Positions 23,773 through 26,411 of a stretch of DNA of 34,160 bases are shown in pieces. Source of the DNA: Siminovitchia fordii DSM 16014 = CIP 108821 (GTDB taxonomy: Bacteria > Bacillota > Bacilli > Bacillales > Bacillaceae_C); NCBI RefSeq assembly GCF_000374565.1, contig NZ_KB894715.1:1-34160 (forward strand), given 5' to 3'. The position numbers and the translations under genes were made by a program. Below the pieces are notes generated by a model. That model saw nothing but the letters and a program-made list of their open reading frames with translations, was not told the origin of the DNA and did no database searches. How positions within the stretch are numbered: the first letter of the stretch is position 1; each line of letters opens with the position of its first letter.

Positions 23773-25053
23773 ATGAAAGTTTGTGTAATGGGACTGGGAT
23801 ATATAGGACTGCCGACATCTATCATGTTTGCTAGGCATGGTGCGGAAGTGGTTGGAGTGGATGTGAAAAAAGATGTAGTCTCTAGGCTGAATTCCGGTGA
23901 AATCCACATTGAAGAACCGGGATTAAAGGAAGCTTTGCTGGAAGTCATTAAAAAAGGGACTTTTAAAGCATCACTGAATCCGGAAAAAGCGGATGCTTTT
24001 ATATTATCCGTTCCGACTCCCAATTTGCGCGATCCTCACAAATCATGTGACCTGACCTATGTATTGGACGCGTTGAACCGTATCCTTCCTTGCATGGAAA
24101 AAGGAAATACCGTGATTGTGGAATCGACGATTTCCCCCAGAAGTATGGATGATCATATCAAACCAGTCATTGAAGCTGCAGGGTTTGTTGCAGGGAAAGA
24201 TATTTTCCTCGTTCATTGTCCGGAAAGAGTCCTTCCAGGCCAAATTATGCACGAACTCATTTACAACAACCGGATTATCGGCGGCATCACACCGGCTTGC
24301 ACCGAAGCTGGCGTAAGGGTTTATTCTACATTTGTCCAAGGCGAAATGAACCGGACGAATGCCAAAACGGCTGAAATGTCCAAGCTGATGGAGAACACCT
24401 TCCGTGATGTCAATATCGCATTGGCAAACGAATTGACCATGGTCTGCGACCAATTGGAAATTAACGCTTTGGATGTTATTCAAATGGCAAATAAACACCC
24501 GAGAGTAAATCTTCATCACCCTGGTCCCGGTGTCGGAGGACACTGCCTTGCCGTAGATCCCTATTTCATTGTTTCCAAAGCGCCTGAAACGGCCAAAATC
24601 ATTCAATTGGCACGCAGCGTGAACACCTCCATGCCGGCCTTTGTAGTAGAGAACATCAATGCTTTAATGCAAAAGGTGAACGGAAAAATTGTCACATTAT
24701 TCGGCTTGACCTATAAAGGAAATGTGGACGACACGAGAAAAAGCCCGGCAATGGAAGTGCTGGAAAGACTAAAGTTCGAGGGGAGATATGGCGTAAAAAC
24801 GTATGATCCCCATGTCAACAGCCGACTTGTTATGAAAGACATCCGGGAAGCGGCAGCCCATTCCGATTTGATTGTCGTGTTAACCGATCATGACGAATTT
24901 AAAGAGGTGGACTTCTCCCAATTATCAGGCATGGCAACCAAGCGGATTTTTGACACAAAAAATGTCGTTCAAAATCGTTCGGAAGCCTTTCAATATATCA
25001 ATTTCGGCAATCTCTATCATTTCAAAAAGCAAACCATGGTGGGAACACGTTAG
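23773..25053 (+). CDS. wecC: UDP-N-acetyl-D-mannosamine dehydrogenase
   Basis: Encodes 426 residues. It oxidises UDP-ManNAc to UDP-ManNAcA with 2 NAD+ in the cytoplasm. The NAD site is GLGYIGLP at 7-14. CPERVLPGQIMHELIYNNRI (149-168) is the WecC-type central block. The catalytic Cys258 sits in GPGVGGHCLAVDPYF. The C-terminal UDP-binding part has LFGLTYKGNVDDTRKSPAME. The VLPG and NNRIIGG blocks separate it from UDP-Glc dehydrogenases. Its partner epimerase WecB is encoded at 29209, so ManNAcA is probably a building block of the glycan made here. GGAGGAATT before the ATG; a strong terminator follows. Confidence 0.92.
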   Translation: MKVCVMGLGYIGLPTSIMFARHGAEVVGVDVKKDVVSRLNSGEIHIEEPGLKEALLEVIKKGTFKASLNPEKADAFILSVPTPNLRDPHKSCDLTYVLDALNRILPCMEKGNTVIVESTISPRSMDDHIKPVIEAAGFVAGKDIFLVHCPERVLPGQIMHELIYNNRIIGGITPACTEAGVRVYSTFVQGEMNRTNAKTAEMSKLMENTFRDVNIALANELTMVCDQLEINALDVIQMANKHPRVNLHHPGPGVGGHCLAVDPYFIVSKAPETAKIIQLARSVNTSMPAFVVENINALMQKVNGKIVTLFGLTYKGNVDDTRKSPAMEVLERLKFEGRYGVKTYDPHVNSRLVMKDIREAAAHSDLIVVLTDHDEFKEVDFSQLSGMATKRIFDTKNVVQNRSEAFQYINFGNLYHFKKQTMVGTR

Positions 25054-25066
25054 TCGTGTGTCGTAT

Positions 25067-25106
25067 AGTGCTGTCGGAAGGATTTTCCCCCGGCAGCACT
25101 GTTTTT
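25067..25106 (+). terminator. terminator of the GT-GT-wecC unit
   Basis: AGTGCTGTCGG (25067-25077) pairs with CCGGCAGCACT (25090-25100), with one wobble, then GTTTTT. Confidence 0.88.
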
Positions 25107-25200
25107 CTGACATTAATAGAAAAGCGTAAGCGCCCGTTAAGCGACGTACAAATCTATGAAATGCGGAAGACGGCCGATTAGGGGTGACAAGCGCTGGCCG

Positions 25201-25255
25201 CCTTAGGTCGCCACGTCCTGTGGCGCCGGCGGCACTAGGACATCCTGTCCGTCGG
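25201..25255. repeat. paired-hairpin unit 1
   Basis: Hairpin GCCAC-GTCCT-GTGGC is at 25210-25224 and hairpin GGAC-ATCCT-GTCC at 25238-25250, starting 28 nt apart and joined by a linker ending in GGCACTA. About 89% identical to unit 2. Confidence 0.8.
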
Positions 25256-25260
25256 AGGGT

Positions 25261-25295
25261 AATCCAGTGAAGTCGTTCTTTGACTTCATTGGATT
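25261..25295. repeat. 14-bp hairpin between units 1 and 2
   Basis: AATCCAGTGAAGTC (25261-25274) pairs with GACTTCATTGGATT (25282-25295), with a single wobble, around a 7-nt loop. There is no T-tract, so it is not a terminator. Confidence 0.75.
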
Positions 25296-25443
25296 GACCG
25301 AAGCGACCTCGAGCCCCTGCCGTCTGGAGCTAGACAATGGAGCACTCCGCAATGAGATAAAGGATAAGGAAGTGTGGAGAGTGCCAGGCTTATGACCTCG
25401 AGCCGATGGCACTCGCAGCCGGACAACACGGCGACGTAGGCCG

Positions 25444-25498
25444 CCTCAGGTCGCCACATCCTGTGGCTTCGGAGGCACTAGGACGTCCTGTCCGTCGG
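25444..25498. repeat. paired-hairpin unit 2
   Basis: Hairpin GCCAC-ATCCT-GTGGC is at 25453-25467 and hairpin GGAC-GTCCT-GTCC at 25481-25493, again starting 28 nt apart. Confidence 0.8.
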
Positions 25499-25501
25499 CA
25501 G

Positions 25502-25559
25502 GCTCAGGACGCGACGTCCTGTCGCTTCGCTTGCACTAGTACTTCCTGTACGGCGAAGC
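25502..25559. repeat. paired-hairpin unit 3 with compensatory stem changes
   Basis: Hairpin GCGAC-GTCCT-GTCGC is at 25511-25525 and hairpin GTAC-TTCCT-GTAC at 25539-25551, starting 28 nt apart. Compared with units 1 and 2, a C-G pair became G-C in the first stem and a G-C pair became T-A in the second. An outer stem GCTTCGC/GCGAAGC encloses the second hairpin. Confidence 0.8.
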
Positions 25560-25631
25560 TGGACAAAGCAGATACTTTTTTCGGTCTTATATTATGTCTT
25601 TAACAGTAAGAAAAATCGGGAGTCTGATATC

Positions 25632-26411
25632 GTGAAAAACACTTTTGATTATATGGAAAAAAAGGAGCATATCAATCTTATCGAAAAATGGATTTGTGAA
25701 AAATCGAAAGGCGGTCACACTTTAAAAATTGGATGTTCCCAAGGATTGGATTCCATTTTTATGGGAGGAGAGAGAGGCAGTGGGCTTGATCTCTCCGAAC
25801 AATCGGTTCAATCTATGAATCAGCTGCTGGACCGTGAGGACCCAGACTGTAGATGCAACAATGTAATGACAGATGATGTTGAAGGCGAGACATTCGACTC
25901 TGTGATTGTAAGGAATATCTTCCAGTATGGAACGGATGCCCCGAAAGTAATGGAAAAAGCTTTTGGCTTGCTAAAAGAAGACGGCCGCCTTGTCATAACG
26001 GTTTCTGATGAATCAGGCCGTTCACTGAAACTTTTTTATGCAACGGAAGTCTATCAGTTTCAAACGGAATCCCTCCAAATCATAGAGATGCAATTTTTCG
26101 GCAATGAGATAGGTGCTGTTTTTAAAAAAGTTTCCGGGGCATGGCCGCTGCATCGGGATATGAATAGCATTCCGATAACAATGGAAGAAGCATGGCAACA
26201 GGAAAAGCAAGCCAGTATGGACCGGATCATGAAGAATATTTACTTGCAGGAACATTTGGAAGCAGCTTACTCGAGAGAGGAAAAGCTGCTCATCTCCTAC
26301 AAGGAATTATTGCGAAAGTATCAAGCGCTCAGCAACTCCAAGCTTGGAAAATTTGCTTTATATTATTGGAAAAAACGCAGAAGTCTTTTTGGAGGGAAAT
26401 CAAGTGGATGA
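25632..26411 (+). CDS. class I SAM-dependent methyltransferase
   Basis: Encodes 259 residues. A reduced motif I is seen as LKIGCSQGLDSIFMGGERGS (31-50), followed by GLDLSEQSV for the adenosyl-binding acid. FDSVIVRNIFQYG (about 88-100) and LLKEDGRLVITVSDE (about 112-126) are motif II/III-like. The C-terminal third is a charged helical tail. It most likely methylates a sugar of the growing glycan or its end, given the neighbours. GTG start after GGGAG. It overlaps the next gene by 8 nt, which suggests the two proteins act together. Confidence 0.75.
   Translation: MKNTFDYMEKKEHINLIEKWICEKSKGGHTLKIGCSQGLDSIFMGGERGSGLDLSEQSVQSMNQLLDREDPDCRCNNVMTDDVEGETFDSVIVRNIFQYGTDAPKVMEKAFGLLKEDGRLVITVSDESGRSLKLFYATEVYQFQTESLQIIEMQFFGNEIGAVFKKVSGAWPLHRDMNSIPITMEEAWQQEKQASMDRIMKNIYLQEHLEAAYSREEKLLISYKELLRKYQALSNSKLGKFALYYWKKRRSLFGGKSSG

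Follow-up and report, generated by a model that had tools for sequence, protein, structure and literature searches.

Are the short hairpins that crowd one intergenic spacer of Siminovitchia fordii parts of an RNA, or are they pieces of mobile DNA? The spacer belongs to the window, by which we mean the whole analysed stretch of 34,160 nucleotides, and it is bordered by two genes whose domains bear out the surface-glycan neighbourhood noted in a preliminary description of the locus. That description had proposed RNA roles on either strand and had added that the element may equally be a mobile intergenic repeat; this last suggestion is supported by dispersed copies and by pairs of filled and empty sites. 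The reading that we regard as probable is that the window contains two insertions, one of a single unit and one of a two-unit array, of a very small mobile DNA element (approx. 58–63 bp) into other intergenic repeats. Besides the dispersed copies and the filled/empty pairs, its basis includes exact one-unit growth of arrays, decayed or missing copies at sites filled in relatives, and Watson–Crick covariation free of a G-U bias. The spacer and its borders comprise the following features.

23773..25053, plus strand: flanking gene, UDP-glucose/GDP-mannose dehydrogenase family (PF03721, PF00984, PF03720)
25118..25152, plus strand: left end, of the GAAAAGCG... type, belonging to one more dispersed repeat (94% match to C1:324518-324552; 89% to C8:19365-19400)
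25158..25195, plus strand: host repeat B, left part, interrupted by unit 1; outer end approximate (aligned with own-genome empty copies at C25, C7 and C1)
25196..25253, plus strand: Bacillaceae-1 unit 1, 58 nt (RF01690, 40.7 bits; insert relative to three empty copies of the same host repeat; fold); hairpins 25210-25224 and 25238-25250, outer stem about 25197-25202 with 25228-25233
25254..25338, plus strand: host repeat B, right part, beginning GGAGGG; outer end approximate (same alignment with empty copies)
25387..25434, plus strand: part of dispersed repeat D, just before units 2 and 3 (48-nt match, 98%, C1:674021-674068, sequence L032)
25439..25496, plus strand: Bacillaceae-1 unit 2, 58 nt (RF01690, 31.2 bits, E 8.4e-4, below gathering; direct repeat D1, 90%); hairpins 25453-25467 and 25481-25493
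25497..25554, plus strand: Bacillaceae-1 unit 3, directly following unit 2 in the same orientation (RF01690, 29.9 bits, E 1.7e-3, below gathering; direct repeat D1, 73%, spacing 58); hairpins 25511-25525 and 25539-25551
25555..25566, plus strand: GAAGCTGGACAA, a terminus found beside other arrays too (by eye)
25632..26411, plus strand: flanking gene, methyltransferase (PF13847, PF08241)

The units, their family and their surroundings

The element had first been taken for an undescribed one, but cmscan assigns the units to the Rfam family RF01690, Bacillaceae-1, with unit 1 scoring above the gathering threshold of 35 bits (E 8.7e-6 at genome scale). The two hairpins with N-UCCU loops and the outer stem around the first of them are present in all three units, and together with the spacing they are what the window shares with the family. 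The window units differ in being nested, in the tandem arrangement of two of them at 58 nt, in the 3' end (GTC/GGC) and in the absence of the AAGGA 5' end of the family model, where GGA occurs in 22 of the 27 other rows of our alignment.

Much of the original account of the hairpins stands. The loop is N-TCCT in six out of six, the starts of paired hairpins are 28 nt apart in each of the three units, and the stems (GCCAC/GTGGC and GGAC/GTCC twice each, GCGAC/GTCGC and GTAC/GTAC once each) differ only by compensated changes. The unit length, given as 55 nt, is actually 58 nt, the period of the head-to-tail units 2 and 3; the outer stem had been missed; and the span 25120-25565 does enclose the units, but it also takes in pieces of other dispersed repeats. 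Unit 1 begins 243 nt upstream of unit 2, and its placement is ambiguous by 2 nt, with GG on both sides. Single-sequence folding is only partly supportive of the structure: the plus-strand z values (RNA/DNA parameters) are −3.1/−4.4 for unit 1, −1.2/−2.1 for unit 2 and −1.0/−1.7 for unit 3, the first hairpin of the last being different in the predicted minimum-energy fold.

Bacillaceae-1 was published in 2010 by Weinberg et al. (PMC2864571), who, according to PMC4333381, were not confident of its strand. The latter source also proposes binding of CsrA by the reverse complement of the motif, and PMC8208703 mentions eight Bacillaceae-1 structures in Bacillus subtilis that are absent from earlier annotation. 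The units of the window are hence members of a known family and the CsrA idea is already in print; what is of interest is the reinterpretation as mobile DNA of a family that Rfam files as an sRNA gene.

Outside the units, the stretch 25118-25566 consists largely of matches to other dispersed repeats. A comparable organization is seen at the own-genome loci L010-L032, where, as in the window stretch, intergenic repeats with common ends (GAAAAGCG... on one side, ...GGCGCTGGAGCTGGACAA on the other) form mosaics with Bacillaceae-1 units nested inside. Scanning of 24950-25700 yielded two matches resembling promoters on the minus strand (0.6 expected), none on the plus strand, and a single terminator-like match against 0.9 expected. 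Immediately downstream of the dehydrogenase gene, at 25067-25106, there is also an inverted repeat, AGTGCTGTCGG/CCGGCAGCACT, followed by TGTTTTTCT; it resembles an intrinsic terminator and was not listed by the scan.

Copies, insertion sites and array growth

Matches to positions 25100-25600 number 61 in the own genome (4.5 Mb) when searched with blastn, and many of these copies look like mosaics built from the same pieces. Of 299 genomes of the order, 147 carry the element; the survey scored about 16 candidates per genome, a ceiling that many genomes reached, and its copy numbers are therefore lower bounds (at least so many). A phylum-wide draw of 299 genomes gave matches in four, three of them from the same order and one (G397) from another class. 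The loci L311-L314 and L319-L322 of the latter have a Bacillaceae-1 core inside a longer dispersed repeat, which starts with CACTATCAGAAAGTATAAG or a variant of it and ends near a CTTGGC/GCCAAG hairpin. A blastn search of plasmids and phages with one canonical copy at E 1e-3 gave no match.

Three sets of sites allow filled and empty states to be compared, and the clean inserts measure 58, 63 and 61 nt. The first is host repeat B, of which the copies in the window and at C10 and C23 contain the insert, whereas those at C25, C7 and C1 lack it. Its filled junction reads GACAAGCGCT, then the insert (beginning with GG and ending with TC), then GGAGG, an arrangement in which the 2-nt GG may be duplicated. 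The second is a host repeat of genome G120, from another family, with nine empty and 12 filled copies, eight of the latter retaining both host sides and four the right side only. Fixed words on the two sides are 13 nt apart in the nine empty copies and 76 nt apart in the eight two-sided filled ones, a net gain of 63 nt. One junction is common to all eight, which therefore probably stem from a single insertion amplified with its host, and the three filled copies of host B may likewise represent one amplified insertion. The third is the spacer between 5S and tRNA-Val, compared in two genomes of one genus. Fixed words are separated by 103 nt in G300, which is filled, and by 42 nt in G303, which is empty; the difference of 61 nt lies between the same flanks, ACAACATTA and CGGAGG.

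The strongest competitor of our reading, which we nevertheless think unlikely, is that the unit is an ordinary DDE-type miniature transposon or a plain hitch-hiker: its insertions would be rare, and larger repeats would have carried it along through recombination or their own mobility. The single junction in G120, where the unit occurs with its host and a third of the filled copies (4/12) keep only the right host half, speaks for such a process, as does the residence of units in several types of host with common ends, and the GG/GGA repeated at the insert ends could be a short target duplication. The repeat is, however, never longer than 2–3 nt in host B or in the tRNA-Val spacer, and no end duplication was seen in the G120 inserts, the ends of which are not resolved to the base. 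Nor did we notice, by eye, any terminal inverted repeats in the unit, and there are sites outside host repeats altogether, namely in the 16S leader, at 5S and at tRNA-Val.

Such sites stand out in genomes with few copies. Among the best copies of 30 low-copy genomes, 14 adjoin or interrupt a gene for rRNA or tRNA: nine are just upstream of 16S (two of these, L115 and L117, judged by eye), three at the 5' end of 5S, one inside a partial 5S sequence (L109) and one at tRNA-Val. The copies at L102 and L111 are in the opposite orientation to 16S. In the own genome, too, one copy is located 2 nt from tRNA-Val (L001). A study of Bacillaceae-1 is said, in its abstract, to tell rRNA-linked copies apart from intergenic ones and to report expression in B. 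subtilis; since the linked copies are already separated there, we do not claim the association with rRNA genes as new.

Sites of this kind differ between relatives. Among 13 distinct tRNA-Val sites, hand-picked from a longer list, five have a full-length module, four have remnants and four have none, and six more stretches upstream of tRNA-Val (L258, the second of L261, L263, L275, L277 and L278) are without a module as judged by eye. In the orthologous rpsR spacer the model of the module finds a match in G000 (31.6 bits), two fragments in G302 (8.6 and 5.8 bits) and no match in G299, G300, G301 and G303. At L109 an intact 5S gene is followed by a partial 5S sequence that the copy (523-590) splits in two, 11 nt of the 5S being absent.

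Arrays change by whole units. Of two adjacent host copies at C14, one has 35 nt and the other 93 nt between fixed words, exactly 58 more, and an array in Siminovitchia terrae comprises 22 hairpins, i.e. 11 units with a period of 58, all head to tail. In the own genome an exact GGAG follows 12 of 24 arrays and GAAG a further seven; few canonical copies are followed by GGAG, and a GGAG target is not general.

DNA or RNA: the evidence from base pairing

Compensated stem changes had been advanced as evidence of structure, and this argument was upheld in an alignment of 29 homologous copies (A2), where the covariation is strong. In A2, 98.2% of 491 cells pair (32–40% in slid controls), 127 carry changes on both sides, one-sided changes are absent, and no G-U pair was counted. 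It comprises two window units and 27 of the 60 loci L042-L071 and L102-L131, hand-picked among 67-nt matches and leaning to high scorers; the row of L053, wrongly placed in an earlier alignment (A1), was left out. Because A2 is a high-scoring set, we also assembled a wider one, A3, with 124 matches from 85 sources, 114 of them distinct. The distinct copies have 1705 Watson–Crick cells, 33 G-T, 36 A-C and 72 others. As many as 20 of the 33 G-T cells fall in one stem column and are all from the own genome, the rows of which, taken alone, show a raw excess of G-T over A-C (25 versus 11) that is a point against a DNA-like reading. Counted as events (once per genome, column and pair, with the outermost pair left out), the deviations amount to 14 G-T, 26 A-C and 29 others; with the outermost pair included, G-T stays at 14 and A-C rises to 35.

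Structured RNA tolerates G-U pairs on its own strand. Four of the same loci supplied 46 tRNAs as a control, and in these, with 17 fixed pairs each, there are 712 Watson–Crick pairs, 50 G-T, three A-C and 17 others (fixed stem positions were used in place of the ARAGORN brackets, which appear to list only accepted pairs). The G-T:A-C ratio of the element differs from that of tRNA whether the plus strand (p 5e-10) or the minus strand (p 3.7e-4) is taken as the RNA, in a comparison that sets events against cells, has one kind of RNA as its control and uses pair counts that are not independent of relatedness. Whichever strand is read, the deviating pairs show no clear preference for G-U; neither therefore has the look of a strand under selection as RNA, and the RNA reading of the element is weakened. 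The same A-C/G-U logic is used to orient RNA motifs in PMC6429828, a source that also allows for some motif candidates acting as single-stranded DNA.

These counts bear directly on the idea, advanced in the preliminary description as well as in PMC4333381, that a minus-strand RNA sequesters CsrA by its AGGA loops in the manner of CsrB/RsmZ. The loops do read AGGAN on the minus strand in all six hairpins of the window, and the deviating pairs lean towards minus-strand G-U (26 versus 14, p 0.08), but tRNA stems have 50:3, a very different proportion (p 3.7e-4), and the stems of the element are without an RNA-like bias. One of the promoter-like matches, TTGATA-16-TATAAT at 25675-25648 on the minus strand (11/12), points into the element, which speaks for sequestration and against mobile DNA; it is a match to the consensus only and lies in the start of the methyltransferase gene. 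The presence of csrA says little, as the gene is nearly universal (283 of 299 genomes). Genomes that lack it carry the element less often than expected (3/16, p 0.018), a result in favour of the CsrA idea and against our reading, but from a test confounded by the derivation of seven of the 16 from one family (f23), and the three carriers among them have at least 2, 8 and 6 matches, one of the three genomes being 7% contaminated. Sequestration of CsrA would, moreover, leave the filled/empty pairs and the tandem expansion unexplained, and we deem it distinctly improbable.

Still less can be said for a signal in the processing or folding of rRNA and tRNA precursors that later escaped into intergenic regions. 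It would account for the 14 of 30 best copies at rRNA or tRNA genes in low-copy genomes, the nine upstream of 16S in particular, but positions and orientation vary between genomes (as at L102 and L111), close relatives have empty or decayed sites at tRNA-Val and the stems do not behave like those of an RNA, so that we assign it a very small probability. A plus-strand small RNA pairing with Shine-Dalgarno sequences by its UCCU loops, for which the invariance of the loop in the window (6/6) and the filing by Rfam as an sRNA gene could be adduced, is hardly credible given that G-T does not exceed A-C (14 versus 26 events) and that 24950-25700 has no promoter-like site on the plus strand.

A possible mechanism and known mobile repeats

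Mobile DNA remains the reading that we prefer, and a mechanism can be sketched for it. The module consists of a bulged stem capped by one N-TCCT hairpin, with a further N-TCCT hairpin after it on that strand. Two hairpins with one loop on the same strand, repeats of at most 2–3 nt at those ends that are resolved, and covariation of a DNA type together suggest movement as single-stranded DNA, like that of REP and IS200/IS605 systems, although the end repeats may also reflect a short target duplication by a transposase of another type. In single-stranded form the hairpins would be recognized by a trans-acting enzyme. Choice of the cut may be aided by the shared loop (GGA/TCC), considering that GGA stands at the 5' end of the module in most rows (22/27) and that GG or GGA occurs at several targets; such a guiding role is a guess. 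Slippage or unequal recombination would afterwards lengthen the arrays. For the element in the window we think a dedicated regulatory role unlikely, and if it affected the glycan genes, it would do so incidentally.

Transposases of the Y1_Tnp type (IS200/IS605, RAYT) were considered as mobilisers and rejected. A Y1_Tnp gene is present in 107 of the 147 carriers and in 115 of the 152 genomes without the element (p 0.60). It is absent from 14 genomes in which the element has 12 or more matches, and from B. subtilis, itself a carrier. At 20 chosen Y1 loci of carrier genomes, a module-like match was found within about 1 kb at only two, with no flanking arrangement, and the two Y1_Tnp loci of the own genome (L039 and L040) gave a single 11-nt match of 7 bits. 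The Y1_Tnp match at L039 (C13:18846-19193) contains seven internal stop codons and represents a decayed transposase gene. The lack of a mobilising enzyme among these results counts against the mobile-DNA reading.

A bolder proposition, which we put forward tentatively and with some doubt, is that Bacillaceae-1 is not an RNA and ranks among the smallest self-contained mobile DNA units: some 60 nt with a left and a right hairpin only, moved as single-stranded DNA without target duplication by a non-Y1 enzyme, the GGA/TCC loop guiding the reading of the cut site. If this is true, an RNA-family entry that pipelines annotate as a small RNA gene must be reread as mobile DNA. The contrast between Watson–Crick-only covariation and the G-U bias of true RNA stems offers an inexpensive way of testing other orphan 'structured RNA' families in general. 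The proposition would also raise the question of what copies a pair of hairpins of 60 nt without any transposase in sight.

Two known systems invite comparison. REP elements and their RAYT transposases, as treated in PMC8266576 and PMC3733652, share with Bacillaceae-1 short intergenic hairpins that have a conserved loop and are often paired; recognition as a single strand is shown there, whereas for Bacillaceae-1 we infer it. Bacillaceae-1 differs in that both hairpins have the same orientation, the GTAG tag is lacking (the alternative tag CGTC does overlap with the foot of hairpin 2, on its 3' side, in units of the own genome, though not in canonical ones) and there is no association with Y1_Tnp. 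The pneumococcal BOX elements, according to PMC3049150, are likewise composite intergenic repeats in which a variable number of short, tandem, structured modules is held between other modules, and they too are nested in repeats. In the present case the host modules are not the same at every site, and the module is found on its own, too, beside rRNA and tRNA genes; the likeness drawn here is one of architecture.
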